NCBI GenBank assembly: GCA_013140765.1
Contig: JABFSE010000024.1
Location: 1 to 40,189, forward strand
Source of the DNA: Sulfuriferula sp.
GTDB taxonomy: Bacteria; Pseudomonadota; Gammaproteobacteria; Burkholderiales; Sulfuriferulaceae
Length of the DNA: 40,189 nt
Direction of reading: 5' to 3'
Shown here: piece after piece, positions 1,356 through 27,069 of the stretch
How the letters are laid out: each line of letters begins with the position of its first letter
How positions within the stretch are numbered: the first letter of the stretch is position 1
Made by a program: the position numbers and the translations under genes
Notes under the pieces: generated by a model
Database searches by the model: none
What the model was told of the DNA's origin: nothing
What the model saw: the letters and a program-made list of their open reading frames with translations, nothing else

Positions 1356-1417
1356 AGGGTCAGTTCTAACATTGCTATATTTGACTGGAATAATGTAGTA
1401 ATGTTAGAACTGACCCC
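1356..1417. repeat. Palindromic repeat, copy 1 (25-nt arms, 12-nt loop)
   Basis: The left arm at 1356-1380 and right arm at 1393-1417 are inverted copies around a 12-nt spacer. The core GGGTCAGTTCTAACATT is perfectly matched. Of the three differences, two would be G-U pairs in RNA and one is the outermost base. It sits in the convergent thiO/yceF gap, 38 nt past the thiO stop. A run of six T follows 13 nt beyond the right arm, so this is not a canonical intrinsic terminator, although it could still stop transcripts. Related copies lie near 18.6, 26.0 and 27.0 kb. Confidence 0.9.
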
Positions 1418-1430
1418 AATAAAATAAGTA

Positions 1431-1448
1431 TTTTTTATCCACGAAAAG
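1431..1448 (+). repeat. 18-bp dispersed repeat, first copy
   Basis: TTTTTTATCCACGAAAAG is identical to 26872-26889. Both copies lie beside a copy of the palindromic repeat and at a convergent gene junction. This copy ends three bases before the yceF stop codon complement. Confidence 0.8.
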
Positions 1449-1451
1449 GTT

Positions 1452-2045
1452 TCACAGTAATATGTCCCAACCTTCATTCATGAGCATTTGGGTGAGGGCG
1501 ATGAGGGGGAGTCCTATGAGGGCGTTAGGGTCTGTGCCTTCCATTTTTTCCATGATGGCGATGCCCATAGCTTCGGATTTGGCACTACCTGCGCATTGGT
1601 AGGGTTGCTCTTTGTGTAGGTAGCTGTGTATTTGTTCGTCGCTGAGGTGGCGGATGGTGACGCTGGTGGGGACGATTTGGGATTGTAGTTTGCCTGTTGC
1701 GCTGTTGTATAAGCTGACGGCAGTGTGGAAAATTATGCAGTTACCGCGCATAGTTTGCAGTTGTTTGACGGCGTTTTCGTGATTGCCTGGCTTGCCGATG
1801 TGGCTACCATTTAAGGTGGCAACTTGGTCTGATCCTATGATGAGTGCGCTGGGGAAGTCTAGGGCGACGGCTTTTGCTTTGAGCTCGGCTAAACGTAATG
1901 AGGTGCAAGCTGGGGTTTCGTCTAGCAGTGGCGTTTCATCAACTTTGGGGTTGGCGACGGTAAACGCAACTTGCAACTTCTGCAGCAACGCCCGTCGATA
2001 GGGCGAGGTGGAGGCGAGTACAAGTTGCGGTTGGGTGGTGTGCAA
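1452..2045 (-). CDS. yceF: Maf-family nucleotide pyrophosphatase, YceF type
   Basis: 197 aa, the usual length for Maf proteins, which hydrolyse non-canonical nucleoside triphosphates to the monophosphate and pyrophosphate. The N-terminal ASTSPYRRALL (11-21) is the substrate loop, DETP (36-39) and SDQVA (72-76) carry acidic active-site residues with Asp73 as the likely general base, and GK lies at 83-84. The sequence matches the YceF branch (7-methyl-GTP pyrophosphatase) better than the dTTP/UTP branch (YhdE), though this is from memory. It follows pycB by 5 bp, so it is probably the last gene of the pycA-pycB-yceF transcript. In E. coli yceF diverges directly from yceD. Here the two are separated by the pyc genes. 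Confidence 0.88.
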   Translation of the reverse strand: MHTTQPQLVLASTSPYRRALLQKLQVAFTVANPKVDETPLLDETPACTSLRLAELKAKAVALDFPSALIIGSDQVATLNGSHIGKPGNHENAVKQLQTMRGNCIIFHTAVSLYNSATGKLQSQIVPTSVTIRHLSDEQIHSYLHKEQPYQCAGSAKSEAMGIAIMEKMEGTDPNALIGLPLIALTQMLMNEGWDILL

Positions 2046-2050
2046 ATGCT

Positions 2051-3898
2051 TTACTCGGGTTGGATTTCGAGTAGCACTTGGTCTGGTGTGACTGCGTCGC
2101 CTTTGACGACGAATAAGTTAATCACTGTGCCTGAAATGGAGGCTTGGATTTCGTTTTCCATTTTCATGGCTTCGATGACTAATACTGCCTGACCAGCGGT
2201 GACTTTTTGCCCTGTGCTGACGAGTACGTCAACGATGTTGCCAGGCATAGCAGTGGTAACGTGACCTGCATGGGTGGGGCGTGGGCGACCTGTAGTGCTG
2301 GTTTTTTGTGTCGATTTAGCCTTGCTTGTGCTACCGTTAGCACTGATTTCGACTTCGTTGAGGGCTTCGACAAAGACTTCTTCGGTGACACCATCGACAG
2401 ATACGTAGTAAGGGCGATCTGTTTGTGAGCCGTGTCCTGTGCCTGTGAGGCGGATGTGGTAGGTTTCACCATGCAAGGTCACGCGGAATTCATCGGCGGC
2501 GAGTCGTGTGCAGTCGCTCGCTGCTTTGGCTTCAATAGGTAGTAAGGTTTCAGGTGTGAGGGTGTGGGCGTTGCGTTCTTGTAAGAAGGTGCGACCTAGG
2601 TCTGGGAACATGGCGTAGGTGAGCGTGTCTTCTTCAGAGTGTGCGACGTCTTCGATTTCAGCACGCAGTTTGTCCATTTCGTCGGCAATTAAATCAGCTG
2701 GGCGGCAGGTGATGACTTCTTGATCAGCAATTGCCATGCCGCGTACAGCGGCGTTGATAGCCCCTGGTGCTTGGCCATAACGGCCTTGCATGTAGAGTTT
2801 GACTTCGTTGGTAATGGTTTTGTAGCGACCGCCTGTGAGTACGTTAATCACGGCTTGGCTGCCTACGATTTGTGAAGTAGGGGTGACTAACGGTGGGTAG
2901 CCTAAGTCTTCACGGACGCGAGGGATTTCTGCCAGCACTTCGTCCATGCGATCTAATGCGCCTTGGTCTTTAAGCTGGTTAGACAAGTTGGAAATCATGC
3001 CGCCTGGTACTTGGCTAATGAGTACGCGAGGGTCAACTTTGGTGAATTTGCTTTCAAATTGCCAGTAGAGTTTACGGATTTCGCGGAAATAGGCGGCGAT
3101 TTCTTCTAAATCGTCGAGTTTAATGCCTGTGTCGTATTGTGTGCCTGCCAATGCGGCAACCATGCTTTCGGTGGTTGGGTGGCTAGCACCTTCAGCAAAA
3201 GCGGAGATGCAGGTGTCGATAATCGTTGCGCCAGCTTCTATGGATTTGAGCTGTGTCATGCTCGCCAAGCCTGATGTGGCGTGGCTGTGGGTGTGTACGG
3301 GCAAACCTGTGGCAGCCCGGATGGCAGTGACTAATTCAAATGCGGCATTGGGTGTGAGCAAGCCTGCCATGTCTTTGATGGCGATGGTGTCACAACCGAA
3401 ATTTGCCAAGCCTTTTGCTAATTCTACAAAGTGGGGGATATTGTGGACAGGGCTGGTGGTGTAGGAGATTGCGCCTTCTGCCATTTTGCCTGATTTTTTG
3501 ACGGCTTCGATAGATACGCGCATGTTGCGTAAGTCGTTCATGGCATCGAATACGCGGAATACGTCCACGCCGTTATCGGCTGATTTTTGCACGAAAGCAC
3601 GCACTACGTCATCGGCATAGTGACGATAACCTAGTAAATTTTGCCCACGCAATAGCATTTGTATGGGCGTGTTAGGTAGGGCTTTGCGTAGTTTGGTGAG
3701 ACGCTCCCATGGGTCTTCTTTGAGGAAACGCACGCAAGCATCGAAGGTCGCGCCGCCCCATGCTTCTAGCGACCAAAAGCCGATGTTGTCGAGCTTAGCG
3801 CAGATAGGGAGCATATGCTCAGTACGCATACGCGTTGCTATTAAAGATTGATGGCCGTCACGGAGGACAAGATCGGTGATAAATACTTTATTAGTCAT
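2051..3898 (-). CDS. pycB: Pyruvate carboxylase subunit B (carboxyltransferase plus biotin carrier)
   Basis: 615 aa. The N-terminal half is a DRE-TIM-type carboxyltransferase barrel starting near LRDGHQS (residues 12-18), which supplies metal ligands, with HTHSHATSG further along. A conserved PYC/OadA domain follows. A linker rich in Ser, Thr and Lys leads into a C-terminal biotinyl domain with EAMKME, where Lys579 is the predicted biotinylation site. It transfers CO2 from carboxybiotin to pyruvate, making oxaloacetate for anaplerosis. The protein also resembles the alpha subunit of oxaloacetate decarboxylase. The biotin carboxylase gene immediately upstream and the absence of membrane beta or gamma subunits favour pyruvate carboxylase. 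ATG start at 3898, with a 41-bp gap to pycA. Confidence 0.87.
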   Translation of the reverse strand: MTNKVFITDLVLRDGHQSLIATRMRTEHMLPICAKLDNIGFWSLEAWGGATFDACVRFLKEDPWERLTKLRKALPNTPIQMLLRGQNLLGYRHYADDVVRAFVQKSADNGVDVFRVFDAMNDLRNMRVSIEAVKKSGKMAEGAISYTTSPVHNIPHFVELAKGLANFGCDTIAIKDMAGLLTPNAAFELVTAIRAATGLPVHTHSHATSGLASMTQLKSIEAGATIIDTCISAFAEGASHPTTESMVAALAGTQYDTGIKLDDLEEIAAYFREIRKLYWQFESKFTKVDPRVLISQVPGGMISNLSNQLKDQGALDRMDEVLAEIPRVREDLGYPPLVTPTSQIVGSQAVINVLTGGRYKTITNEVKLYMQGRYGQAPGAINAAVRGMAIADQEVITCRPADLIADEMDKLRAEIEDVAHSEEDTLTYAMFPDLGRTFLQERNAHTLTPETLLPIEAKAASDCTRLAADEFRVTLHGETYHIRLTGTGHGSQTDRPYYVSVDGVTEEVFVEALNEVEISANGSTSKAKSTQKTSTTGRPRPTHAGHVTTAMPGNIVDVLVSTGQKVTAGQAVLVIEAMKMENEIQASISGTVINLFVVKGDAVTPDQVLLEIQPE

Positions 3899-3939
3899 GA
3901 TGTGCGCAATCTTTAGAGTATAAGTAAATTATGGATAAA

Positions 3940-5358
3940 TTATAAACCATTATGAGCCGCAATCGCAGCGGCAATCGCAGCGGCAAGCATTTCGGGTGGC
4001 TGTCCTGCATCGTAGTTGATCAGCTCTGGGTGCATATCGACGAATGAGGTGTTGAATTCGCCACTGCGAAAATCTTCGTTACCCAGTATGGCCAGATAGT
4101 AAGGTATGGTGGTTTTTACGCCAAATACGACCATGTCATTCAAAGCGCGACGACCGCGTGCAATGGCACTTTCCCAAGATAGATTCCATACCGTGAGCTT
4201 GGCACACATGGAGTCATAATAGGGTGGGATGACGTAGCCGCTATAGATAGCCGCGTCGGTACGCACGCCAGGGCCGCCAGGTGCATAGTAACGGGTGATG
4301 CGGCCGAAGCTAGGCAGAAATTGGTTTTTAGGGTCTTCTGCGTTAATGCGAAATTCTATCGCATAGCCGCGATGGTGGATGTCTTCTTGTTTGTATTGCA
4401 ATGGTAAACCGCTGGCAACGCGAATTTGCTCTTGCACAATATCAACGCCTGTAATGGTTTCGGTGATAGTGTGTTCAACTTGCAGACGGGTATTCATTTC
4501 CATGAAGTAAAATTGGTTTTCTTCATCGAGTAAAAATTCTACCGTGCCTGCGTTTTCATAGCCTACTGCTTTTGCCGCTTGCACTGCGAGCTTGCCTATA
4601 TATTGACGTTGCGCTTCGGTGAGTTGTGGCGATGGCGCGATTTCGATTAGTTTTTGATTGCGGCGTTGTATTGAACAATCACGCTCAAATAAGTGGATGG
4701 CATTACCAAAGCTGTCCGCTAATACTTGAACTTCTATGTGTTTAGGATTGACGACGCATTTTTCCATGAACACTTCGGGTTTGCCGAAGGCTTTGCTGGC
4801 CTCGGAGACGACGCGGTCGTAGTTTTTAAGCAGTTCGGCTTCAGAGTCGCAACGACGTATGCCGCGCCCACCACCGCCGTTGGTGGCTTTGAGCATGACG
4901 GGGTAGCCTATGCTATTGCCTAGTTGGCGTGCTTCTTCTACGTCGGCTAGGTTGTGGTCGCTACCTGGAATCACGGGGATGCCTGCTTTAATCATGGCTT
5001 TGCGTGCTTGGATTTTGTCACCCATCATGGTGATAACGTCGGCATTAGGACCGATAAAGCGGATGCCGCGACGGGCGCAAATTTCTGCTAAGGCAGGGTT
5101 CTCAGATAAGAAGCCATAACCAGGGTGTAGCGCGTCACAACCGCTGGCAACGGCTAGGTTGACTATATTATGCGCGTTCAAATAACCTTGTACGGGATCG
5201 GAGCCAATGTTGTATGATTCGTCAGCTTTTTTAACGTGTAGCGCATGGCGATCGGCATCGGCGTAAATGGCAACTGAGGTAATGTCCAATTCGGAGCAGG
5301 CGCGTACTATGCGCACTGCAATTTCGCCTCGATTGGCTATAAGTATCTTCTTAATCAC
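3940..5358 (-). CDS. pycA: Pyruvate carboxylase subunit A (biotin carboxylase)
   Basis: 472 aa, ATP-grasp biotin carboxylase. It carboxylates the biotin on PycB using ATP and bicarbonate. Visible elements are the N-terminal KILIANRGEIA, HPGYGFLSEN (78-87), MMGDK (111-115), the glycine-rich ATP loop GGGGRGIRR (161-169), EKCVVNPKHIEVQ, and the catalytic FMEMNTRLQVEH segment. It is closely related to AccC of acetyl-CoA carboxylase and could be mis-called as such. The partner gene pycB directly downstream is the reason for the assignment. The start is GTG at 5358, because the conserved N-terminus begins there. AAGG lies about 10 nt upstream, and a TATAAT hexamer on the minus strand (5395-5400) gives a plausible promoter with a short leader. 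Confidence 0.87.
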   Translation of the reverse strand: MIKKILIANRGEIAVRIVRACSELDITSVAIYADADRHALHVKKADESYNIGSDPVQGYLNAHNIVNLAVASGCDALHPGYGFLSENPALAEICARRGIRFIGPNADVITMMGDKIQARKAMIKAGIPVIPGSDHNLADVEEARQLGNSIGYPVMLKATNGGGGRGIRRCDSEAELLKNYDRVVSEASKAFGKPEVFMEKCVVNPKHIEVQVLADSFGNAIHLFERDCSIQRRNQKLIEIAPSPQLTEAQRQYIGKLAVQAAKAVGYENAGTVEFLLDEENQFYFMEMNTRLQVEHTITETITGVDIVQEQIRVASGLPLQYKQEDIHHRGYAIEFRINAEDPKNQFLPSFGRITRYYAPGGPGVRTDAAIYSGYVIPPYYDSMCAKLTVWNLSWESAIARGRRALNDMVVFGVKTTIPYYLAILGNEDFRSGEFNTSFVDMHPELINYDAGQPPEMLAAAIAAAIAAHNGL

Positions 5359-5375
5359 GCGTGTTAGCCTTTATT

Positions 5376-5404
5376 TTGACAATGCAATGAGAAAATTATA
5401 TCAT
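5376..5404. promoter_or_regulatory. Overlapping divergent promoters, yceD (+) and pycA (-)
   Basis: On the plus strand TTGACA (5376-5381) is followed after 17 bp by TATCAT (5399-5404), a near-consensus sigma-70 promoter pointing at yceD. On the minus strand a perfect TATAAT lies at 5395-5400, pointing at pycA, with only a weak -35. The two -10 elements overlap, so the polymerases should compete. With the plus-strand promoter, the start site would fall about 3 nt before the chosen yceD ATG, giving a nearly leaderless transcript. Confidence 0.5.
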
Positions 5405-5413
5405 GAGCGGCTT

Positions 5414-5908
5414 ATGTCGGAACAAGTTGCCATAAATAGTCTTGCCTTTGCGCAGGATCACAGTGTTTTATCAGGAGCCGTGCACGTGGATAGCTTGCCA
5501 CGTCTAGCGGCAGCGTTGATGGCGGGTGATGTTAATTTGAATTATATTATCGAGGGCGGTGTTGCAGTGCGCCCTTATTTGCGACTCAAATTAACCGCTG
5601 ATTTGCCATTGTTATGTCATCGTTGTGCGCAGATTTTTAAGTGGCATCTGGATACAGAATGCCAAGTTTGGTTAGCGCAAAACGAAGCAGAATTAGACGT
5701 GTGGGATAAAGTAGCAGACGGATTAGCCGATGCGATGTTAGCAGAGGATAAATTCGATTGGCAGGCTTGGTTGGAGGAAGAGGTGTTGTTGGCTTTGCCA
5801 GTATCGCCAGTTCACCCAGACGATGGATGTTTAGCTACGGCTGAACAAGGGAAAAGCGAGCGACCAAACCCATTTGCGGTATTGGCAACATTGAAACGGC
5901 AACATTAA
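5414..5908 (+). CDS. yceD: YceD family protein (DUF177), large-subunit rRNA accumulation factor
   Basis: 164 aa from ATG 5414, preceded by GAGCGG. An in-frame ATG at 5387 would add nine residues. The family is linked to 23S rRNA accumulation and nearly always sits beside rpmF. The protein has the typical metal-binding-like CHRC (after residue 60), an acidic middle, [14 protein letters not shown], and the C-terminal [13 protein letters not shown] signature. One conserved Cys follows in DDGC. rpmF begins 20 bp downstream. The frame is open upstream of 5387, into antisense pycA, but that part is not expected to be translated. Confidence 0.85.
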
Positions 5909-5928
5909 ATTTTTATTGGAGTACTAAC

Positions 5929-6108
5929 ATGGCTGTTCAACAGAACAAAAAATCACCGTCTAAACGTGGTATGCACCGCGCACATGACTTCTTGACCGCA
6001 CCTTCATTGGCTGTTGAGCCAACGACAGGTGAAGTCCACTTGCGTCACCATATCAGCCCTAACGGTTTTTACCGTGGTCGTAAGGTTGTTGCAACCAAAG
6101 GCGACTAA
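5929..6108 (+). CDS. rpmF: 50S ribosomal protein L32
   Basis: A short gene of 59 codons, read directly from the DNA. It begins [20 protein letters not shown], continues with [20 protein letters not shown], and ends [12 protein letters not shown]32 is a basic protein of the large subunit near the peptidyl-transferase region. The zinc-binding cysteines seen in some bacterial L32 proteins are absent, which is the usual proteobacterial form. TTGGAGT at 5916-5922 is the ribosome-binding site. The sequence style resembles betaproteobacterial L32 more than that of E. coli. It is followed by a hairpin with a T-rich tail. Confidence 0.97.
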
Positions 6109-6136
6109 AATCGCGTTTATGGTGGCTTGACCTTCT

Positions 6137-6170
6137 ATGCCGCAAGTGTACGCTTGCGGCATTTTGTTTT
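6137..6170 (+). terminator. Hairpin with T-rich tail after rpmF
   Basis: A 10-bp perfect stem (6137-6146 with 6153-6162, ATGCCGCAAG) and a 6-nt loop are followed by TTTGTTTT. It looks like an intrinsic terminator or attenuator that would lower transcription into plsX relative to rpmF. Confidence 0.75.
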
Positions 6171-6210
6171 GGTAGTGGCTTTTGCTGAGCGGTGTTTAAT
6201 CAGGTTAAAA

Positions 6211-7233
6211 ATGACTAAAAATATAACGGTGGCGATAGATGCGATGGGGGGCGATCACGGCGTGAAAGTGACCGTTGCCGCCGCCATTAAGTGCTTGGCG
6301 CGTGACCCTGATTTGCATGTCATTCTTGTTGGCGTTGAGGATGTGGTGCGCACTCAACTACGCACTTTGCGTGGCATAGAAGATGCGCGTTTACGCATTC
6401 ATCATGCCAGTGAAGTGGTCGGTATGGATGAATCGCCTGCGTTGGCGATGCGCAATAAAAAAGATTCCTCCATGCGTGTTGCTATCAATTTAGTGAAGTC
6501 GGGCGAGGCGGATGCGTGTGTGTCTGCGGGCAATACAGGGGCGTTGATGGCAACGGCGCGGTTTGTGCTGAAAATGTTGCCAGGTATAGAACGCCCCGCG
6601 ATTGCCAGCGAGTTACCTACGATTAAAGGTCGTACCTTTGTGCTCGATTTGGGGGCGAATGTGGATTGTACGCCTGAGCATTTATTGCAATTTGGTATCA
6701 TGGGCGCGATGTTGGTGTCCGCCTTGGAACGGCGTGACGCGCCTAGTGTGGGCTTGCTCAATATCGGCGAAGAAGAAATCAAGGGTAATGAAATTGTTAA
6801 GCAGGCGGCTGAACTGTTACGTCATAGCGGCTTGAATTTCTACGGTAATATCGAAGGCGACGATATTTATAAAGGCACGACCGATGTGGTCGTGTGCGAT
6901 GGTTTTGTCGGCAATGTGGCGTTAAAAACGTCAGAAGGGCTGGCTAAAATGATTTCTACCATGTTGCGAGAAGAGTTTAATCGCAATATATTGACCAAGC
7001 TGGCTGGGCTAGTTGCACTGCCAGTGTTGAAAGCATTCAAAAAACGCGTGGACCCGCGTCGTTATAATGGTGCGACGTTATTGGGCTTGCGCGGTGTGGT
7101 GGTAAAAAGTCACGGCGGTGCTGATAGATATGCGTTTGAGCACGCCATTCGGCAAGCTGCGCGTGAAGTGAAAAATAATGTGCAACAAAGAATTACTGAA
7201 AAAATGGCCGTATTGCATAAGGATGTCGCATAG
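6211..7233 (+). CDS. plsX: Phosphate acyltransferase PlsX
   Basis: 340 aa from ATG 6211. The frame stays open upstream, but the family's N-terminus ([13 protein letters not shown]) fixes this start. PlsX converts acyl-ACP to acyl-phosphate for phospholipid synthesis at the membrane. The glycine-rich AMGGDHG near residues 10-16 and later [25 protein letters not shown] and [11 protein letters not shown] segments are typical. The stop codon abuts the fabH start codon, so the two are translated from one message. The plsX-fabHDG-acpP-fabF order is the classic fatty-acid cluster. Confidence 0.95.
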
Positions 7234-8193
7234 ATGTACGCAAAAATAGTAGGAACAGGCAGTTATCTGCCCGAACGGATTATGTCCAACGAGGAGCTCG
7301 CCGCGACGGTCGATACCAGCGACGAATGGATTACTGAGCGCACGGGCATACGTCAGCGGCACTTGGCGGCGGATGGTCAAACGACTAGCGATTTAGCGAC
7401 CATGGCGGCGCGTCAAGCAGTGGCGGCGGCGGGCATTACGGCGAATGATATAGATTTAATTATTATTGCCACCACGACACCTGATTTGGTGTTTCCTAGT
7501 ACGGCGTGTTTAGTGCAGGCTAAATTAGACATAACCAATGGTTGCCCTGCATTTGATGTGCAGGCGGTGTGTAGTGGCTTTGTTTATGCGATGTCGATAG
7601 CGGATAACTTTATTCGCGCAGGGCAAGCGCGTTGTGCGTTGGTGATAGGCGCAGAAACACTCTCGCGCATTACCGATTGGACCGACAGAAGCAATTGTAT
7701 TTTATGGGGTGACGGCGCAGGTGCGGTGATTTTAACGGCGACGGAAACGCCAGGTATTATCGCGACACATTTACATGCAGATGGTCGTCATAAAAATTTG
7801 CTATGCGTCAATGGCGGCGTGTCTGCTGGCGTTGATGGCGCATATAAAATGCAAATGGAAGGCAATGCCGTATTCCGCGTGGCAGTTAAAACGCTGGATG
7901 CCATTGTCGATGAAACCTTGGCCGCGAATGGTTTGCAAAAATCAGACGTGACCTGGCTAGTACCGCATCAAGCTAATATCCGCATTATTCAGGCAACTGC
8001 GAAAAAACTGGGTATGAGTATGGATAATGTGGTGGTTACCGTTGATAAACATGCCAATACGTCAGCCGCCTCAGTGCCGCTGGCGTTAGATACGGCGGTG
8101 CGTGATGGGCGTATTAAAACGGGCGATATTGTGCTTATGGAAGCCTTTGGCGGCGGCTTTACTTGGGGTTCTGTGTTAGTGAAATGGGCGTAA
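7234..8193 (+). CDS. fabH: Beta-ketoacyl-ACP synthase III
   Basis: 319 aa. FabH condenses acetyl-CoA with malonyl-ACP to start fatty-acid chains. The catalytic triad is complete: Cys113 in AVCSGF, His245 in VPHQANIRI, and Asn275 in [10 protein letters not shown]. The C-terminal [13 protein letters not shown] is standard. ATG directly follows the plsX stop, and AAGGA lies 10 nt upstream inside plsX. Two bases separate the fabH stop from the fabD start. Confidence 0.96.
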
Positions 8194-8195
8194 AT

Positions 8196-9125: not shown

Positions 9126-9134
9126 GAGTTGAAT

Positions 9135-18606: not shown

Positions 18607-18628
18607 AAACAGCGATTTGTGTTGTTTT

Positions 18629-18714
18629 GGGTCAGTTCTGTTGTTTGGGGTCAGTTCTAACAATCAAGCATTTTGAAGCGATAGTGTAGTAATGTTAGAA
18701 CTGACCCCAAACAA
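18629..18714. repeat. Palindromic repeat, copy 2 (22-bp perfect arms) with degenerate half-copy
   Basis: The arms at 18641-18662 and 18693-18714 are perfect inverted copies of TTGTTTGGGGTCAGTTCT plus AACA, around a 30-nt spacer. A partial direct copy of the left arm (GGGTCAGTTCT, 18629-18639) lies just upstream. The left inner sequence (AATCAAGCATTTTG) resembles the half-copy at 26953, and the right inner sequence (GTGTAGTAATG) resembles copy 1, so this is a hybrid. It separates the yceB-like gene from the pilin operon. Confidence 0.92.
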
Positions 18715-18778
18715 GGGGGCGCAGAGTCTAAAGCGCAGAGCCGTTTGTTATGGGAAATATACCGCTAGTCAGTCTGTG

Positions 18779-18808
18779 TTGGTGTTTGTGTTGGGGGGTG
18801 GTTATGAT
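18779..18808 (+). promoter_or_regulatory. Candidate promoter of the minor pilin operon
   Basis: TTGGTG (18779-18784), an 18-bp spacer, then TATGAT (18803-18808), 33 bp before the pilE start. No sigma-54 element (TGGC...TTGC with 11-bp periodicity) is evident. Confidence 0.4.
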
Positions 18809-18841
18809 GTAATGGTAGTGGTTTATTATTTGGGGATGGTG

Positions 18842-19252
18842 ATGAAGCGTATAAATAATGGGTTTACTTTGGTTGAGCTGATGGTGGTGGTGGCTATTAT
18901 TGGGATTATCGCGTCGATTGCGTTGCCGTCTTATACGGCTTACGTTGCGCGGAGTAAGGTGGCTGAGGCGACGAGTAATTTATCTAATTTACGCGTGGCA
19001 CTTGAGCAGTATTATCAAGATAATCGTACTTACGTCGGTGGGGTGGTATTGCCGCCAGCGGGGACGGATAAGAATTTTACTTACACTTCTGCGGTTACTG
19101 CGACGACTTATACGCTTACCGCTACAGGCAAAGCGGCTCAAAACATGAGTGGTTATGTTTATACCATAGACCAAAACAACGCCAAAACCTCCACTGTTGG
19201 TGGTGTTGCGGGTAATACTTGTTGGTTAGCTTCATCGAGCATGACATGTTAA
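18842..19252 (+). CDS. pilE: Type IV minor pilin PilE
   Basis: 136 aa. The prepilin leader MKRINNG is cleaved before Phe8, followed by the hydrophobic helix FTLVELMVVVAIIGIIASIA with Glu5 of the mature protein. LEQYYQDNRTYVGG after about residue 55 is typical of the minor pilin PilE found beside fimT-pilVWX-pilY1. Two C-terminal cysteines (NTCWLASSSMTC) should form the D-region disulfide. GGGGA upstream serves ATG 18842. An in-frame ATG two codons earlier is possible. The open frame back to 18692 runs through the palindromic repeat and is not coding. The stop overlaps fimT. Confidence 0.88.
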   Translation: MKRINNGFTLVELMVVVAIIGIIASIALPSYTAYVARSKVAEATSNLSNLRVALEQYYQDNRTYVGGVVLPPAGTDKNFTYTSAVTATTYTLTATGKAAQNMSGYVYTIDQNNAKTSTVGGVAGNTCWLASSSMTC

Positions 19253-19770: not shown

Positions 19771-19779
19771 GAGGTGGAT

Positions 19780-20175
19780 ATGAACATAAAACATCAACGA
19801 AAATCGGCGGTTAATATACATTCGCAATCCGGTATGGTGTTAATCGAGGCGATGATAGCGGTGCTGATATTTTCGATAGGAATATTGGGCATAGTCGCCT
19901 TGCAGGCGGCGATGATTAAAAGCACATCGCAAGCGCAATACCGTGCACAGGCGCAGTACATTGCGCAACAAATGTTAGGTAATATGTGGGCTGACCCTAC
20001 TAATATCGCCAATCACTATGACTATGCCTGTACTGAGTTGCCTAATGGCGTTTGTACCGCTGCAGCGGCGACGAGTGGCATACCTGGTCAAGTGGTGATT
20101 ACCATTGCTTGGCAACCCCCTGGTGACGTTGCGCATAATTACGTTATGTTGGCGACTGTGGCAGGAGCGGCATGA
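19780..20175 (+). CDS. pilV: Minor pilin PilV
   Basis: 131 aa, starting at ATG 19780 with GAGG just upstream. The leader is longer than usual (about 18 residues) and ends SQSG before MVLIEAMIAVLIFSIGILGIVAL, the PilV N-terminal helix. QAQYRAQAQYIAQQML and ANHYDYACTE fit the PilV family. An in-frame GTG at 19774 would add two residues. It overlaps pilW at the ATGA junction. Confidence 0.87.
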   Translation: MNIKHQRKSAVNIHSQSGMVLIEAMIAVLIFSIGILGIVALQAAMIKSTSQAQYRAQAQYIAQQMLGNMWADPTNIANHYDYACTELPNGVCTAAAATSGIPGQVVITIAWQPPGDVAHNYVMLATVAGAA

Positions 20176-21263
20176 TGCGATATGCCTATTTGCAACGTGG
20201 TTTTAGTTTGGTTGAGCTCATGGTGGGCTTGGTGATAGGTCTAATCGCCACGCTGGTTATTGCGCAAGTTTATTCAACTTTTGAAGGCTTAAAACGCACC
20301 ACCACAGGCGGCGCAGATGCTCAAACCAATGGCACGATAGCACTCTATAGCATACAGCGTGATGCGGGTAATGCGGGGTTTGGTTTGCCTGTGTCGGATA
20401 GCACGGTAAACGTATTGAACTGCCCATTAGGGACGGCAATAGACCCTGACGGTGCGGGCGCGTTAGCGGCGATAGATATTTTTCCTGTAGCGGTAACGGA
20501 TGGCGGTGCGGGGGCGGGCAATAGTGATAGTGTTACTTTCCGTTTTGGTGCGGGTGCTTATAACATGGGTACTGCCGTGACTAAAATAAGCAGTGTGACG
20601 GGGACGAGTTTGGCAGTGTCTAACAGTCTGGCTTGTAAGAACGGTGATGCCGCTATTGTCATGAATGGTACTTTGGCTTGCAATAGCGCGGTGGTGAACG
20701 GCATCCCTGATGCCGCGCACGTCAGTTTGACAGCAGCACCTGCTGCAGCTGTCGCGGGTGCGAGTATTGCGTGCCTGGGTCAGGGCTTATCGCCTAGTGG
20801 TTTGCAGAACGCATGGAATGAACTTATTTACAGCATAGCGGGTAATCAGCTGGTGTTGACGCAAAATGGTGTAGCAAGCAATATCGCATCTGATATTGTC
20901 AATATCCAAGTGCAATATGGGATTTCTGCTGTGGCAAGCCAAGACACAATAGCGAATTGGGTAGATGCAACGGGGGCTACTTGGGGCACAACAGCAATCA
21001 CGCCGACGGTGACTAATCGTAATCGCATTAAAGCCATACGCATTGCGGTAGTTGCACGGAACGGTGAGTTAGAAAAAACCAATGTCACCAATGCGTGTAG
21101 CTCACTCACAACAGCATCGCCTACAGGGCTGTGTGCGTGGGCGGGCACAGCGACTGACCCTGCGCCAGCGATAGATGTGAGTAATGATGCGAATTGGCAA
21201 CGTTACCGTTATCGCGTATTTACGGCGATTATTCCATTACGTAGCTTGATATGGCCGTTATGA
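20172..21263 (+). CDS. pilW: Minor pilin PilW
   Basis: 363 aa. A short leader MMRYAYLQRG is cleaved before FSLVELMVGLVIGLIATLVI. The N-terminal helix continues into VYSTFEGLKRTTTGGADAQTNG, the PilW signature, and is followed by a large low-charge beta domain with several Cys (for example NCPLG, LACKNGD, LACNSA, IACLG). The C-terminal RYRYRVFTAIIPLRSLIW is typical. Works with FimT, PilV and PilX to load PilY1 at the pilus tip. The start is one of two adjacent ATGs. Confidence 0.9.
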   Translation: MMRYAYLQRGFSLVELMVGLVIGLIATLVIAQVYSTFEGLKRTTTGGADAQTNGTIALYSIQRDAGNAGFGLPVSDSTVNVLNCPLGTAIDPDGAGALAAIDIFPVAVTDGGAGAGNSDSVTFRFGAGAYNMGTAVTKISSVTGTSLAVSNSLACKNGDAAIVMNGTLACNSAVVNGIPDAAHVSLTAAPAAAVAGASIACLGQGLSPSGLQNAWNELIYSIAGNQLVLTQNGVASNIASDIVNIQVQYGISAVASQDTIANWVDATGATWGTTAITPTVTNRNRIKAIRIAVVARNGELEKTNVTNACSSLTTASPTGLCAWAGTATDPAPAIDVSNDANWQRYRYRVFTAIIPLRSLIWPL

Positions 21264-21889
21264 AAATCATGAATAATTCAATTAAAAAACAGCAAGGTGT
21301 GGTGCTACTCGTTGCGCTGATTGCATTAGTGGTGATGTCGTTAGGGGCGTTAGCAATCGTGCGGTCTGTTGATACGAACAGCTTAATCGCGGGTAACATC
21401 GCCTTTAAGCAAGCAACCACGTCGGCGGGGGATTTTGCGTTGGATGCCGTGACGACTTTTATCGCCAGCAAGGACACTACAGCAGTACCGACCGACCCTA
21501 ATCAATACCTTAACAATAGCAAAGCAAGTGACGGTTATTACGCCATCGTCAACACCACGGGCGCGGCGAGCACTGCCACCATGTTTAATATCGGTGATGA
21601 AGCCAGCTGGGCGAATGCGGGCAAGGTGGCGGCGCTGGTTAATGCAGATTTAACGGCGGCAGGTTTGACAGCGAGTTATGTTATAGAGCGTATGTGTACT
21701 ACGAATGCCGCTACGCCAACAGCGAGTAATTGCTTATTTGCCGCTACTGTTACCAACACTAATTCGAGTGGTGGGAATGCTGTTACACCCGCGCCTACTA
21801 CCGCCGGTGGTGCGCCTTTATACCGCATCACAGCACGAATAGCAGGGCCGCAAAATGCGGTGAGTTACATTCAAGCGTTTACTAATTAA
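21260..21889 (+). CDS. pilX: Minor pilin PilX
   Basis: 209 aa from ATG 21260, which overlaps the pilW stop. ATGs at 21251 and 21269 are also in frame. The N-terminus KKQQGVVLLVALIALVVMSLGALAIVRSVD is the PilX_N pattern, where the usual Glu after the cleavage site is absent, as is normal for PilX. A globular domain with two cysteines (MCTTN, NCLFA) follows. It precedes pilY1 by 28 bp. Confidence 0.85.
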   Translation: MKIMNNSIKKQQGVVLLVALIALVVMSLGALAIVRSVDTNSLIAGNIAFKQATTSAGDFALDAVTTFIASKDTTAVPTDPNQYLNNSKASDGYYAIVNTTGAASTATMFNIGDEASWANAGKVAALVNADLTAAGLTASYVIERMCTTNAATPTASNCLFAATVTNTNSSGGNAVTPAPTTAGGAPLYRITARIAGPQNAVSYIQAFTN

Positions 21890-21917
21890 ATCAGCTCGTC
21901 ATTAAAAGGAGCACATC

Positions 21918-24900
21918 ATGAAAAAACTCATACTACTCATACTACTCATCGCGCTAGGCGTTATCCAACCTAGTCAGGCGGCAACAGTGGCACTGGCTAC
22001 CGCGCCATTGAATACCACGACCACCGCAACAGTATTGCCCAACCTCATGTTTATACTTGATAATTCGGGGAGTATGGGGGCGAATTATTTGCCTGATAAA
22101 GCAGGTTCTTATAGTGGTGATGTGACTATATATAACAATCCCAAATTTAATGGCGTGATGTACGACACTAACATACGTTATGTTACACCTACTAACTTTA
22201 ATCCTGATGGCACAGTGAGTACCACGACTTATCTTAGCCAAGTGGGGACGAGTCTGGCGACAGGGGCGGATACTGCTTCATCGATACCTAACTGGAAAAA
22301 AGTGCTAGTCGATGCTTATAAAGTGCAATCCACCAGTACCATAGATACCTTAAACAGCACCAGTGTGGGTGCGGCTTACGGCAAGATATTCGGCTTTATT
22401 CCAGGTGAGATTTGTACTGCGATAGATTTGAAAACTTGCGTTTTAGGTACGGCGACTACGGCATCTTATCCATATGCCGCTTCACTGCGCTGGTGTAGTG
22501 ATACCGCCAGTGCGACACAGGCAGCCGCGCCAGCGACGGGTAAGTGTCGTGCATCTTATACGTCCACTTATAAATATGCGCGTTATCCTAGTGTGAGAAC
22601 GGCGACCATTACGGTTTCATCTTCTTCATCCAGCACTTCGGTGAGCAGTATTAAGGTTAATGGGGTTGAGATATTGTCAGCCGCTACTACTGCAAGCACT
22701 TCTTACACTGCGGTGGCATTAGATATTGCGAATAAAATCAATGCCTGTAACGGCACTGCCACGGGTAACTGCGCGGCAGCAGGTTATGGAGCGACAGTCT
22801 CTGGCGGTACGGTAACCGTATATGCCAATGCACAGACTACATTAGCAACGCCCGTGATTACCAAATCAGGGAGTATGCCCATATCAGCAAGTACATTTGC
22901 CACTAAAACGAATGCAACGACAGGTGGCTCTAACAGCGCACCTGGTTATAACCTAATCCGTATCATCCCCACCGTAGGTACAACGGCGATTTACCCAGCG
23001 ATAGGCTCAACCAGCAAAGGCGGTGGGCGTAGCGATTGTGCAGGCACGCTGTGTACGGCGAATGAAGAGTTGACTAACTTTGCTAACTGGTACACTTTTT
23101 ACCATACCCGTATGCAGATGATGAAAACGGGTACGAGCAATGCGTTTAAGTCTATAGGGAGCAATTTTCGTGTAGGATTTAATCGGATTGATGATAACTC
23201 CAGTGGCTCTTATAACACAGGTATCGTTTCGCCTGTAGCCACATTTGATGCCACGGGTAAGTACAACTGGTATCAACTGCTGTTTGCCAGTCTGCCTACA
23301 GGTGGCACACCATTGCGTATGGCGATTTCGCAAGCGGGTAAGTATTTTGCAAATAAGTTAGGTTCGGTTGCCGACCCTATGCAGTATTCATGTCAACAAA
23401 ATTTCACTATTTTGTCAACGGACGGTTATTGGAATGAATCTAATAGCTATGTGCAAAAAATAGATGGTAGCGCGATGACAGATCAGGATGGTAGTGGTAC
23501 TGCGAAACCAAAATATGAAGGCTCGACTGCGAGTGCTAATAGCTTGGCAGATGCGACCAAATATTATTACGATACCGATTTGCGTACCAGTGCTTTAGGC
23601 AATTGTACGGGGAATGGCGGTGCGGATGTCTGTACAGATAATGTGTTCACCAGTAGTACCGATACCAATACCAAGCAACATATGACCACGTTTACTTTGG
23701 GCTTGGGTAGCGACGGGCAGTTGATTTATCAGTCTGATTACCTTACCGCTACTACGGGAGATTATGCTGGTATTGTGGCAGGGACGGTGAATTGGCCTGT
23801 GCCAGTAAGTAACACAGAAACCACTACCGACGACTTATGGCACGCGGCAGTGAATGGTAATGGGCAGTATTTCAGCGCAGGCTCGCCACAAGCATTGAGT
23901 GATGGGCTGAATACCGCGTTATCGAGCATTAGCGCAAAAGTGGGTGCAGGTGCGGCGGCGGCAACGAGTAACCTTAACCCTGTAGCAGGTGATAACTATG
24001 CGTATGTCGCCAGCTATACCAGTGCAGACTGGTGGGGTAACCTTGAACAACGCAATATCAATACTACGACAGGTGTCGTGAGCGAAACAGCTAACTGGTG
24101 CGTGGAAGACGTTACTGCTGACGTGTGTAGCTCGCCTAGTGTTGTCGTTACTGATACATCAAGTGGCAGTACGCAAAAATCATGCGTGACTAGCGGCTCA
24201 ACAGCGGCGGCTTGCGTATCTCCTGGCGTTTTTGACTCATCTACCAGTACGTGTAGCGTGCCTATGGCGGTGGCGTGTAATGGTACGCTGTCGAGCAAAG
24301 TATCGGCAAATAGTGATACGCGCACTATTAAAATGGTGAGTGCTGGTACACTAGTTGATTTCACGCCTGCTAATTTGAACTTGGCTTATTTTAATGCGTC
24401 ATTATTAAGTCAATATACTAGCCTGAGTGCGGCACAACAGGCGAATGCGACTGCCAGCAATATGGTCAATTATTTACGTGGTCAAACAGGTTATGACATG
24501 TCGGGTGCGAATGCGGTGAATAACCAAGTATTCCGTCAACGTAAAGCAACCTTAGGTGACGCAGTAGAATCCACGCCGACTTATATTAAAAAACCTGTGT
24601 ATAGTTACGCCGATGCAGGCTACAGTGCTTTTATCACCGCCCAATCCAGCCGTGCGGGTGCGGTGTATTTGGGTACGAATGACGGTATGTTGCATAGCTT
24701 TGATTCGGCTACGGGTAATGAAAACTGGGCTTTTGTACCTACCCCCGTGATACCTAATATGTATAAATTAGCCGATAAAAACTACGCTAATTTGCATAAC
24801 TACTATGTAAACGGTGATATTACGATAGGTGATATTTGTACGGCGAACTGTACGTCATCCAGTGCGACATGGAAAACCATATTAGTAGGCGGTTTGCATG

Positions 24901-25958
24901 GCGGCGGTAAGGGTTATTATGCGTTGGATATCACCAATCCAACCAGCCCTGGCTTGCTGTGGGAATACACCAGCACGACCAATGCGAACTTAGGTTATAG
25001 CTTTGGTAAGCCTATTATCACCAAAAAAGCTGATGGTACTTGGGTGGTGTTGATGACTACAGGTTATAACAACGTCGGTGACGGGGTAGGGCGTTTGCTG
25101 GTGCTGAATGCCGCGACAGGTGCGACTATCAGTAGTATTAGTACAGGGGTAGGTAGCACCACTACCCCTAGCGGCTTGGCGCAAATCAATGACTTTGTCA
25201 GTGCCTTGAGTACCAACAATACAGCGGGCTATGTGTATGGTGGTGATTTGCTAGGTAACCTTTGGCGGTTTGACATCAATGCGGGTACGTCTATGCTGTT
25301 TGCGCAATTACTAGACCCTAGTGGAACTGCACAACCCATCACCGTTGCACCTGAGCTTGGTTTGGTCAACAACACACGGGTGTTGTTTGTGGGGACGGGT
25401 AAATACCTAGAAGGTAGCGATTTGAGCAATACGCAAGTGCAAACCTTGTATGCGATTACCGACCCTGAAGCAACCAGCACGCTAGTGAATCCACGCACTG
25501 TATTGACACAGCAAACCTTTACTACTGTGTCAGGCACTTCCTATCGCACGGTGAGTAATAACACCGTACCCGCTTCATCACGTGGCTGGTATATTAACTT
25601 GCCTGATGTCGGCGAGCGTCAAAACGTTGGCTCACAATTAGTTTCGGGGACATTGATTGCACCAACCAACGTCCCTACCAACACAGCCTGCTCACCTGGC
25701 GGTTATGGTTATATAAACTATGTGAATTACCAAACAGGTGGCGCAGTGCTTTATAACAACCCTAGTTATTATGCCTCGATTAAAACGAATGCAATGGTAG
25801 TCGGTTTGAATGTGATGTACTTAGGAACCTCATACACTCCTGTCGTTAATGTGGTCACAGCGGATAACCCAACACCAACGTTGGTCGATGTTAAATTTGC
25901 AACCTCGTCTGCGGGCTACCAGAAAAAACGCATCATCTGGCGTGAATTGATACAGTAG
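21918..25958 (+). CDS. pilY1: PilY1, type IV pilus tip adhesin / biogenesis protein
   Basis: 1346 aa, exported: a Lys-rich start, hydrophobic core and SQA cleavage site near residue 21. A von Willebrand A domain opens with DNSGSMG, where Asp48, Ser50 and Ser52 form the MIDAS metal site. A Ser/Thr-rich inserted segment (about residues 195-325) separates parts of this region. The C-terminal half is the PilY1 beta-propeller, marked by GAVYLGTNDGMLHSFDSATG near residue 915 and GGDLLGNLWRFD near 1110. AAAAGGAG precedes the start. PilY1 caps the minor-pilin complex, opposes pilus retraction, and mediates adhesion and surface sensing in studied species. Ligand binding here is unknown. Confidence 0.93.
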   Translation: MKKLILLILLIALGVIQPSQAATVALATAPLNTTTTATVLPNLMFILDNSGSMGANYLPDKAGSYSGDVTIYNNPKFNGVMYDTNIRYVTPTNFNPDGTVSTTTYLSQVGTSLATGADTASSIPNWKKVLVDAYKVQSTSTIDTLNSTSVGAAYGKIFGFIPGEICTAIDLKTCVLGTATTASYPYAASLRWCSDTASATQAAAPATGKCRASYTSTYKYARYPSVRTATITVSSSSSSTSVSSIKVNGVEILSAATTASTSYTAVALDIANKINACNGTATGNCAAAGYGATVSGGTVTVYANAQTTLATPVITKSGSMPISASTFATKTNATTGGSNSAPGYNLIRIIPTVGTTAIYPAIGSTSKGGGRSDCAGTLCTANEELTNFANWYTFYHTRMQMMKTGTSNAFKSIGSNFRVGFNRIDDNSSGSYNTGIVSPVATFDATGKYNWYQLLFASLPTGGTPLRMAISQAGKYFANKLGSVADPMQYSCQQNFTILSTDGYWNESNSYVQKIDGSAMTDQDGSGTAKPKYEGSTASANSLADATKYYYDTDLRTSALGNCTGNGGADVCTDNVFTSSTDTNTKQHMTTFTLGLGSDGQLIYQSDYLTATTGDYAGIVAGTVNWPVPVSNTETTTDDLWHAAVNGNGQYFSAGSPQALSDGLNTALSSISAKVGAGAAAATSNLNPVAGDNYAYVASYTSADWWGNLEQRNINTTTGVVSETANWCVEDVTADVCSSPSVVVTDTSSGSTQKSCVTSGSTAAACVSPGVFDSSTSTCSVPMAVACNGTLSSKVSANSDTRTIKMVSAGTLVDFTPANLNLAYFNASLLSQYTSLSAAQQANATASNMVNYLRGQTGYDMSGANAVNNQVFRQRKATLGDAVESTPTYIKKPVYSYADAGYSAFITAQSSRAGAVYLGTNDGMLHSFDSATGNENWAFVPTPVIPNMYKLADKNYANLHNYYVNGDITIGDICTANCTSSSATWKTILVGGLHGGGKGYYALDITNPTSPGLLWEYTSTTNANLGYSFGKPIITKKADGTWVVLMTTGYNNVGDGVGRLLVLNAATGATISSISTGVGSTTTPSGLAQINDFVSALSTNNTAGYVYGGDLLGNLWRFDINAGTSMLFAQLLDPSGTAQPITVAPELGLVNNTRVLFVGTGKYLEGSDLSNTQVQTLYAITDPEATSTLVNPRTVLTQQTFTTVSGTSYRTVSNNTVPASSRGWYINLPDVGERQNVGSQLVSGTLIAPTNVPTNTACSPGGYGYINYVNYQTGGAVLYNNPSYYASIKTNAMVVGLNVMYLGTSYTPVVNVVTADNPTPTLVDVKFATSSAGYQKKRIIWRELIQ

Positions 25959-25967
25959 CTAGCCCCC

Positions 25968-25999
25968 AACCCATCGCTGAATCTAGCGGTGGGTTTACT
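25968..25999 (+). terminator. Hairpin after pilY1
   Basis: An 11-bp stem (25968-25978 with 25985-25995, one T-G pair) and a 6-nt loop, followed by a weak T-rich tail. It is the likely terminator of the pil operon, 9 bp past the stop. Confidence 0.65.
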
Positions 26000-26007
26000 T
26001 ATTTCCG

Positions 26008-26037
26008 TTTGGGGTCAGTTCTAACATTGCTACATTA
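26008..26037 (+). repeat. Palindromic repeat, solo half-copy 3
   Basis: GTTTGGGGTCAGTTCTAAC followed by ATTGCTACATTA matches the left arm of copy 1, including the inner bases. No matching right arm exists in the 160 bp before vapB. It lies just past the pilY1 terminator and forms the left side of the segment holding vapBC. Confidence 0.85.
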
Positions 26038-26136
26038 TTCGTGTGAGTATTTTTATTTTAATTCGTTGCTATTCGATCGGTAACACCGAAAGGTTGGTGT
26101 GTAGCAGTGTATTTAATATAAGGCTTATGATTACGT

Positions 26137-26182
26137 GTATATACTTTTTTACGGGGTATGCTAGTATGTGTATGTCTAGTAT
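26137..26182 (+). promoter_or_regulatory. Candidate vapBC promoter/operator region
   Basis: Contains the palindrome GTATATAC (26137-26144) and two direct repeats CTAGTAT (26161-26167 and 26176-26182) spaced 15 bp start to start, immediately before the vapB ribosome-binding site. VapB-type antitoxins usually bind repeats or palindromes at this position with the toxin. The assignment as an operator is inference. Confidence 0.4.
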
Positions 26183-26197
26183 AAATGAGAGTTAATG

Positions 26198-26434
26198 ATG
26201 AGTACTACGCGGGTTTTCAAAAGCGGTAATTCTCAAGCGGTCAGAATACCGTCTGACATAGCATACGACCGTAATGATATTGAGCTGGAGATTGAGCGGA
26301 TTGGTGATGAGATTCGCATACGTCCAGTGGCTAAACGCTTAATAAATACACTCGATAAATTCAGCCAATTCTCACCTGACTTCATGCGCGAAGGTCGGGA
26401 CGAGAGCGAAGAAGCTACGCGAGACAGGTTATGA
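26198..26434 (+). CDS. vapB: VapB-type antitoxin (AbrB/SpoVT swapped-hairpin domain)
   Basis: 78 aa, starting at ATG 26198 with GAGAG at 26187-26191. An ATG three bases earlier is also in frame. The N-terminus STTRVFKSGNSQAVRIP is the AbrB-like DNA-binding hairpin, and the acidic C-terminus (RDESEEATRDRL) is the part expected to wrap the toxin. It overlaps vapC at ATGA, so the pair is translationally coupled. Together they form a type II toxin-antitoxin module lying between palindromic repeats, which suggests acquisition as a small cassette. Confidence 0.88.
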   Translation: MSTTRVFKSGNSQAVRIPSDIAYDRNDIELEIERIGDEIRIRPVAKRLINTLDKFSQFSPDFMREGRDESEEATRDRL

Positions 26435-26838
26435 TGCCAAAATATATGCTAGACACAAATATGTGTATTTATTTAATGAAAAATCAACCTGCTAGTGTGG
26501 CCGCTCGTTTTGCTGAGTGCTATTTTGGGGATGTTGTCATATCGGCAGTTACTTTAGCTGAATTGCAGTATGGTGTGGCGTGCTCTGTCAACAAGGAGCA
26601 GGATCAGCGGTCGTTGGCTTTGCTACTTGAGGATGTTCCAGCGATCCCTTTTGATATTCCAGCAGCGGCAATGTATGGAATGATTCGATATGCAAATAAG
26701 GATAAAAAGAGCGATGCGTTAGATAAACTTATTGCCGCACATGCTGTTGCACTTAAGGTGGTATTGGTGACAAATAATGAGCGTGATTTCAAAAGCTATC
26801 CTGGCTTGGTGTTGGATAATTGGATAGAGGCTCATTAA
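26431..26838 (+). CDS. vapC: VapC-type PIN-domain toxin ribonuclease
   Basis: 135 aa, or 134 from the second ATG. The PIN-domain acidic residues are all present: Asp8 in MLDTNM, Glu44 in TLAELQYG, Asp98 in DALDKLIAAHA, and Asp119 in TNNERDF. So the nuclease looks intact. The closest studied relatives cleave initiator tRNA in the anticodon loop, but the target here cannot be read from sequence. VapB, encoded just upstream, should neutralise it and together they repress the operon. Confidence 0.9.
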   Translation: MMPKYMLDTNMCIYLMKNQPASVAARFAECYFGDVVISAVTLAELQYGVACSVNKEQDQRSLALLLEDVPAIPFDIPAAAMYGMIRYANKDKKSDALDKLIAAHAVALKVVLVTNNERDFKSYPGLVLDNWIEAH

Positions 26839-26871
26839 AATGAACTGCCTTGATCTTCAAAAGACTTGAAT

Positions 26872-26899
26872 TTTTTTATCCACGAAAAGCACGAAAAAG
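26872..26899 (+). repeat. 18-bp dispersed repeat, second copy, with CACGAAAA tandem
   Basis: TTTTTTATCCACGAAAAG (26872-26889) is identical to 1431-1448. Here it continues into a second CACGAAAA unit, so CACGAAAAGCACGAAAAAG forms a short tandem. It begins 33 bp past the vapC stop. Confidence 0.8.
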
Positions 26900-26952
26900 T
26901 TCGTTTTGTTGTGAATATGGTTTTGTACTGTGTATATCGTATATATGTATGA

Positions 26953-26976
26953 TTGGGGTCTAACAATCAAACATTC
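26953..26976 (+). repeat. Palindromic repeat, degenerate half-copy
   Basis: TTGGGGTCTAACAATCAA aligns with the left arm of copy 2 (GGGGTCAGTTCTAACAATCAA) if five bases are deleted between the two TC dinucleotides. The inner AATCAAACATT also follows copy 2 and not copy 1. It is a decayed left half, lying 30 bp before an intact hairpin. Confidence 0.65.
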
Positions 26977-27005
26977 GTATTGCTGGATATATCGCTGTGT
27001 ATGCT

Positions 27006-27069
27006 TGGGGTCAGTTCTAACTTTCCAACAAATTGGCGGCAATTTGTTGGAAAGTTAGAACTGACCCCA
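27006..27069. repeat. Palindromic repeat, copy 4: perfect 29-bp hairpin
   Basis: The arms 27006-27034 and 27041-27069 are perfectly complementary around the 6-nt loop GGCGGC. The outer part is the family core (TGGGGTCAGTTCTAAC). The inner part (TTTCCAACAAATT) is unlike the other copies. It lies in the convergent vapC/tsaD gap. No T-tract follows either arm, so it is not a textbook terminator. Confidence 0.95.

Follow-up and report, generated by a model that had tools for sequence, protein, structure and literature searches.

The window analysed here is the whole 40,189-nucleotide stretch of contig JABFSE010000024.1 (assembly GCA_013140765.1) from a Sulfuriferula sp., and our subject is a family of short inverted arms that recur in this stretch and elsewhere in the genome, together with the Y1-type transposase genes that they flank. 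Each arm consists of an outer box, GGGGTCAG, a 7-nt address (TTCTAAC here) and a looser tail close to AWTNNNACATT, about 28 nt in total, and two arms facing inward about 6 nt apart make a doublet of 62 bp. Three doublets lie in the window. Doublet 1 (1356..1417), whose first base is A and not G, is found between convergent FAD-oxidoreductase and Maf genes and folds into a hairpin of -20.7 kcal/mol (z -10.6). Doublet 2 (18647..18708) joins a left inner sequence of type AATCAAGC to a right inner sequence of type ATTACTAC; its hairpin reaches -16.3 kcal/mol, and its flanks TTGTTT and AAACAA are complementary at 6/6 positions. Doublet 3 (27007..27068), between a PIN-domain gene and tsaD, forms a hairpin of 29 pairs with -33.7 kcal/mol (z -15.8). 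All three hairpins beat 200/200 shuffles. Since all three copies measure 62 bp and their loops vary in size because the extent of inner pairing varies, the variable spacers reported in an initial annotation of this DNA were misleading.

Other copies in the window are single, damaged or interrupted. A solo arm of 28 nt (26011..26038, + strand) has no hairpin, and no partner was found for it at 60-64 bp, while a degenerate arm (26955..26976, +) lacks five internal bases (AGTTC). The left edge of doublet 2 is straddled by a 19-bp tandem duplication (18620..18638 and 18639..18657, +; 18/19 identical) made of 8 bp of flank and 11 bp of arm. At the start of the contig, the outer 8 bp of a split arm (GGGGTCAG, 117..124, - strand) adjoin an insertion in that arm, the 3′ end of a transposase gene resembling the IS110 family (1..118, +); the inner half of this arm is not on this contig, and the inserted sequence is multi-copy and breaks the assembly here. 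The half-copies listed by the initial annotation do lie where it placed them, with two of them to be renamed: 18629 is held in the first unit of the tandem duplication, and 26955 is the arm that has lost five bases. The edge at 117-124 had been missed. That the forward half stands on the left in all three complete copies is true, and is expected of any inward-facing inverted pair. The sequence GGGTCAGTTCTAAC has nine matches in the window at up to three mismatches, against a mean of 1.74 and a maximum of 6 in shuffles (0/100 reaching nine), and is thus above chance; the damage to arm 26955 excludes it from the nine, and the match at 35798 (3 mismatches) is probably a chance one. A scan of the window with Rfam returned nothing but a tRNA at the window edge.

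The genome that we searched is a draft of 2,175,092 bases in 40 contigs (below, C labels denote its contigs, G labels other genomes and L labels extracted loci). The core occurs at 37 sites with at most one mismatch, 32 of them exact, whereas a reversed-pattern control gives 0, so the family is not limited to the window copies. Indeed, 33 of the 37 arms fall outside open reading frames (ORFs) of at least 120 aa, against 778/1000 random positions of the same loci inside them, which bears out the earlier proposal of a dispersed, mostly intergenic family. The other four comprise the two ends of the transposase element on C39, one arm under an ORF that starts within it and one under a 136-aa ORF. 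Four doublets measure 62 bp and a fifth 63 bp, and a further one, of 62 bp, is interrupted by an IS110-like element. Derivatives of greater length that keep both ends are found at C8:147-461 (315 bp) and C40:78908-79024 (117 bp), with the same mixed end types as the transposase element on C2. The genome thus holds short non-coding elements whose terminal inverted repeats are common to an autonomous element, as in miniature inverted-repeat transposable elements.

Two Y1_Tnp genes, 54% identical, are present on C2 and C39, and PF01797 is over its cut-off in both. As the initial annotation had anticipated of a Y1 transposase, both are bracketed by inverted arms of the GGGGWSAS type, 905 bp (C2) and 952 bp (C39) between outer edges, one C2 arm being of another inner type. 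Indeed, the C39 element has TTCTAAC in both arms and the C2 element has GTCTTGC in the left and TTCTAAC in the right, GGGGTCAG being common to both. The right arm also supplies the stop codon of both genes (TAG in GTTAGAAC), and in 9/86 compared proteins the stop is the TGA of CTGACCCC, eight of these nine ending in an arm-encoded KT or QT. A structure predicted for the C39 protein (mean pLDDT 73.7) has helices in a C-terminal helix-turn-helix (HTH) region, and its best fold match in the PDB is 4er8, a REP-associated transposase in complex with a REP (repetitive extragenic palindrome) hairpin (E 6.8e-6); a profile search from the sequence also retrieved this entry (E 7.3e-4). The C39 C-terminus matches HTH_23 (E 1.3e-4) and HTH_28 (E 2.6e-4), both under the curated bit cut-off; in the relative at L118, HTH_28 is above it (E 9.6e-8). 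These proteins thus carry a C-terminal extension of the HTH_23/HTH_28/Bac_DnaA_C type. Beside the C39 element, a 293-aa ORF (L034 1450-1490), which we take to be RsmI-like, has its listed ATG start at the right arm, and the insertion may supply the start of this neighbour.

We propose that the repeats are the terminal inverted repeats, and the non-autonomous derivatives, of a TIRYT-type element, in which the gene of an HuH/Y1 transposase with a C-terminal HTH lies between arms of about 28 nt, and we put the probability of this reading at roughly 0.8. Judged on sequence features, the correct filing is TIRYT/TIRtron, subclass 2.1, an already published kind, because both the GGGGTCAG ends and the HuH-Y1 transposase, with an HTH at its C-terminus, agree with what has been published for it; the terminal inverted repeats are also dispersed as singles and dimers, as in that type.

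The inner 7-mer follows the tree of the transposases: it requires 8 changes, against a mean of 31.8 when shuffled and 0/200 shuffles as low (85 rows, 65 with a typed end), a comparison that shows clustering and nothing more. The C2 protein belongs to the GTCTTGC/GTCTTTC clade, and its TTCTAAC right end therefore looks replaced by one of the other type, in line with the exchange of ends that had been suggested from doublet 2. The gene itself (L033 2380-2425) ends in ...MLES* on the TTCTAAC-type right arm, its nearest relatives having GTCTTGC or GTCTTTC ends, an apparent case of end capture. Another derivative, of 187 bp in G009, keeps the end of the TIRYT gene, encoding the C-terminus, between arms.

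Within the genus the distribution is patchy, as the initial annotation would have it: the 15-base core, at up to one mismatch, occurs in 9/18 genomes, with most copies in this one, and the transposase profile matches in 11/18. Nor is doublet 3 fixed with its neighbouring gene, since the GGGTCAGTTC core is present at 0/19 tsaD-matching loci of other genomes, one of which has GGGGTCAG with other inner sequences. At the level of the class, inward pairs of GGGGTCAG spanning 50-80 bp overall occur in 78/369 genomes, against 2/369 for the reversed control; bacterial mobile DNA of this kind is therefore probably common and has for the most part not been studied. Among the doublets listed, lengths are uniform in some genomes (7/10 of 52 bp in G172, 3/3 of 59 in G272, 3/3 of 51 in G234) and mixed in others (74, 63, 53 and 75 in G349; 70, 52 and 54 in G287). 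Several genera of the class share doublets, mostly of 52 bp, with a central CTAATATTAG-like core (L207-L214, L218, L219, L223, L228, L230, L232, L238, L257 and L345). Two of the G172 doublets, at L207 and L208, adjoin stretches containing GTTAGGCG, which presumably resemble integron attC sites. TIRYT relatives were not found in viral contigs, where one doublet of this address pattern occurs. Plasmids gave 21 records by tblastn, all below 60% identity, and no match to the 62-mer.

The flanks of doublets are partly symmetric. In 77 doublets of other genomes (from 80 listed, three being in this genome), mostly of other address types, the six flanking positions are complementary at 3.87/6 on average, against 2.13 with shuffled partners (0/3000 as high). 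A subset of 60 reaches 4.18 against 2.21, and the other 17, which are surplus, nested or have poorly pairing arms, 2.76/6; with one doublet per genome (32 of the 60) the figures are 4.03 and 2.20. Flank positions 9-12 show no symmetry effect. In G131 the target TTCAA/TTGAA is present at 5/5 sites, and the five doublets of our own genome score 4, 6, 2, 4 and 2 of 6, too few for a test. The symmetry is weaker around transposase elements (2.39 against 1.67 of 6 in 33 pairs, which include two arrays, L076 and L078, and one duplicate pair, L058/L158). No target-site duplication in the form of a 3-6 nt direct repeat was seen at the outer edges of these elements (0/33), and 2-nt repeats were seen in two. 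The symmetric flanks suggest insertion at short palindromes; they could also come from later correction of imperfect palindromes.

Many ends bear, at the outer edge, a tandem copy of a stretch of flank plus the first bases of the arm, like the one beside doublet 2. Exact duplications of this kind are found at 39/230 ends from own, genus and external loci, against 330/81,600 random positions; six of the 39 take in only 1-2 arm bases. Counted per locus, 25/64 external loci with a testable end have one, against 1/2,842 nearby control positions. When mismatches are allowed, the counts become 41/158 external ends (null 111/24,000) and 5/46 ends in this genome (null 18/8,400). The excess is weaker for doublets of other genomes (10/129 ends against 134/12,000), three of these ten being flank repeats that barely touch the arm. 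One transposase insertion seems to be common to G009 and G004, with the gene's end 94% and the neighbouring gene 92% identical between them (the G004 contig lacks the left side). Outside the right arm they differ: one has a 9-bp unit three times, and in the other a shared flank of 6-11 nt adjoins arm prefixes of 6, 12, 13 and 25 nt. Edge arrays therefore seem to keep forming, and we infer that they are scars of repeated cutting and re-joining, or of templated repair, at settled ends. Alternatively, they could reflect ordinary replication slippage at the base of a hairpin, unrelated to cutting by the transposase. This is a possible explanation that we view with some doubt. Palindromes provoke slippage and long inverted repeats are present, but duplications also occur at the ends of elements of about 900-1000 bp, whose arms are far apart. 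Moreover, slippage usually uses microhomology, and the overlap at the joint is just 0-2 nt in 34/39 duplications; in 13/39, one end point falls directly after GGGGTCA.

Several points weigh against the assignment of the arms to a TIRYT-type element. For 37 arms the search gave no more than two transposase genes, the ends of the C2 gene are mismatched, and multi-copy sequence is hidden by the draft assembly. As many as 21/37 arms are solo, or in tandem without a mate, of which a clean two-ended element predicts none. The motif beside related genes counts in favour of the assignment: in the best 80 of at least 567 loci with related proteins, many of them cut by contig ends, GGGGTCA was found at up to 450 nt from the gene on the left in 53/80, on the right in 43/80, on at least one side in 62/80 and on both in 34/80, a conservation that is not independent because ends elsewhere were picked by GGGGTCA. 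Another point against the assignment is that the search for an empty site gave none. When five doublets of G172, with 150 bp of flank, were compared with four genomes of its genus, G172 among them, nothing contiguous emerged. Likewise, the joined flanks of four G009 elements and six armed stretches of G009 and G008 were compared with four genomes of the genus, and no junction was crossed; for E3 and E4 of these G009 elements both flanks match, but different G004 contigs, for E2 one flank matches and for E1 none. In one gap with an 84%-identical flank on one side, G009 has a TTCTAAC arm (L296 857, C10) and G004 a GTCTTGT-type doublet counted as 62 bp (L312 990-1075, C46) whose first box is GGAGTCAG. 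The same terminator-like hairpin precedes both, and by our reading these are different elements in one gap, which counts in favour of the assignment but is not an empty site. Since two attempts yielded no pair of empty and filled sites, we infer movement, and likewise its occurrence in trans, the cut site, the strand, the contact of HTH and address, the cause of the duplications and the origin of solo and tandem arms.

Part of this record would also suit a relic family, in which the TIRYT protein acts or acted on its own element alone and in which the scattered arms and doublets owe their spread or survival to recombination, slippage and decay and not to transposition in trans. Such a family fits the missing empty site, the majority of solo arms and the mixed ends of C2, which suggest that arms recombine with one another. 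It does not sit well with the 62-bp geometry of doublets at several unrelated sites here, with the patchy distribution, or with internal-deletion derivatives that have both ends at unrelated sites. We consider this explanation unlikely, although it retains appreciable weight.

The label of the initial annotation, a REP-like element mobilised by a REP-associated tyrosine transposase (RAYT), holds for the transposase superfamily and for the flanked genes; the REP class does not hold, and TIRYT fits in its place. A canonical REP/REPIN family moved by a RAYT, in which the halves would be REP hairpins with a GTAG-type guide and the doublet a REPIN, shares the transposase superfamily, its doublet layout resembles what we see, and the NCBIfam model REP_Tyr_transpos (NF047646) matches both genes (66.1 and 78.2 bits). 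However, both scores are below the cut-off of 80, the second one closely. No hairpin was found in the single arm tested (the stretch 26011-26072, which contains no other arm, has a folding energy of 0 kcal/mol), and GT[AG]G hairpins are not in excess beside the two genes (1 and 0, against null means of 0.3 and 0.2). In addition, a long protein with a C-terminal HTH fits the non-REP subclass 2.1 as described in the sections of Quentin et al. 2018 (PMC6006769) available to us. We thus regard this explanation as very improbable. Conserved regulatory or terminator hairpins can be set aside almost entirely: the doublets are strong intergenic hairpins and two of the three lie between convergent genes, but the core is at 0/19 tsaD loci elsewhere, no terminator was called at doublets 1 and 3 (the loop of 10 in doublet 1 exceeds the 3-8 of the scan), and the same sequence flanks transposase genes.

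The TIRYT-type reading leads to the following sketch. The TIRYT protein would bind the arms in trans and recognise the 7-nt address through its HTH or a neighbouring part, and its tyrosine would cut a single strand at or near GGGGTCAG. A doublet or a longer element would then move into short, often AT-rich intergenic palindromes without target duplication. The protein would later re-attack settled ends, faulty re-joining or repair leaving tandem scars of flank and arm prefix, and solo arms would be remnants. The shared box, the address that follows the tree, the set length of doublets here and the edge scars make the working of TIRYT testable; the scars may mark where the enzyme acts.

The arms are also targets of an insertion. 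Ten right junctions join GGGGTCAG to the 3′ end of the transposase-like gene, one at window 1-124 and the others at contig ends of C2, C9, C10, C14, C18, C27, C28, C31 and C40. At the opposite end of the insert, 8/8 left junctions join arm-like inner bases, AAGAC[CT] or TAGA[AC]C; these lie at contig ends of C2, C6, C8, C15, C20, C32 and C38, with one more inside C25, and at the L197 junction about seven arm bases are left. Among plasmid records, the last 39 residues of the encoded protein match a single one, an annotated IS110 transposase, with 70.4% identity over 27 residues. Pfam gave no match for this 39-aa piece, and a search of the draft with PF02371 (DEDD/Transposase_20) gave none either. 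In the left end of the insert there is GCTAGACTT, which differs from the left target by one mismatch in 2/8 junctions and by at least two in the other 6/8, two of which fit another stretch equally well or better. This end also contains GGTCAG, the reverse complement of CTGACC; GGTCAG alone occurs in 123/5000 shuffles and together with GCTAGACTT in 0. These two guide-like stretches have the same layout as the target guides of bridge RNAs, as far as the available part of PMC11208160 describes it. REPs are known targets of several insertion sequence (IS) elements (PMC1525189), and an IS110-like landing in arms would extend this link to another kind of repeat.

Two further features of the window concern neighbouring genes. 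The PIN-domain (VapC-like) gene and the small ORF that precedes it lie between inverted arms at 26011 (+) and 27068 (-), 1058 bp in all, near the size of the TIRYT elements, and this stretch may be an element with a passenger; the 12 loci compared from other genomes gave no match to the PIN gene next to tsaD. At 18752-19249, near a PilY1-like gene (21918-25958), there is a pilin-like gene that matches ComP_DUS, a DNA-uptake receptor. We rejected the idea that the arms are DNA uptake sequences in spite of this gene: such sequences are present in copy numbers per genome far above 37, and the 37 copies here are far too few.

As regards known systems, TIRYT was named in 2013 and discussed in 2018. 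In the parts accessible to us, Di Nocera et al. 2013 (PMC3733652) describe the TIRtron as a gene for a Y1 transposase that is enclosed by long terminal inverted repeats with GGGGWSAS; in some genomes such repeats are also scattered, alone, as dimers or in groups. The arms here are alike in that they bracket a Y1 gene, have a GGGGTCAG that fits GGGGWSAS and occur in scattered copies. In contrast, the passages seen of that paper mention neither a 7-nt address that tracks the tree of the transposases nor palindromic flanks, duplications at the edges or an IS110 insertion within arms, all of which are found here. The sections of Quentin et al. 2018 (PMC6006769) consulted define the TnpA-Y1 subclass 2.1 by a long protein resembling TnpA(REP) that ends in an HTH of the HTH_23/HTH_28/Bac_DnaA_C-like kind, by a lack of REPs close to the gene and by GGGG[AT][CG]A[CG] in the majority of the flanking repeats, features that our two genes share. 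The same sections suggest that the C-terminal domain may have lost end recognition or gained a new target, whereas the inner 7-mer here tracks the protein tree and may be read by the transposase. The word TIRYT was not found beyond these two papers in the literature searched, nor was any title on TIRYT-type elements among those listed for literature with GGGGTCAG and transposase, subscription papers lying mostly outside both searches. As far as that literature goes, the agreement of address and tree, the edge duplications, the palindromic flanks and the IS110 insertion are new additions.

With RAYT/REPtron systems and REPINs (E. coli TnpA-REP, PDB 4er8), the family has in common the catalytic fold and intergenic, hairpin-forming doublets. 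It differs from them in that no GTAG guide was found, that the single unit tested has no hairpin and that the arms are the ends of an element. With IS200/IS605 (IS608, ISDra2), it shares the HuH-Y1 catalytic domain, and target-site duplication was not seen here. IS200/IS605 elements make no target-site duplication either. The differences are the inverted, near-symmetric ends, the partly symmetric flanks, the lack of a single-end hairpin and the additional HTH domain. We tentatively suggest, as a possibility that calls for reserve, that TIRYT follows a route unlike that of IS200/IS605 or RAYT: symmetric ends would combine a shared GGGGTCAG cut box with a 7-nt address read by the transposase, insertion would take place at short palindromes, re-cut ends would build lineage-specific arrays of 5-12 nt of flank plus arm prefix with a preferred end point after GGGGTCA, and the arms would in turn be the programmed landing site of a bridge-RNA-guided IS110 element.

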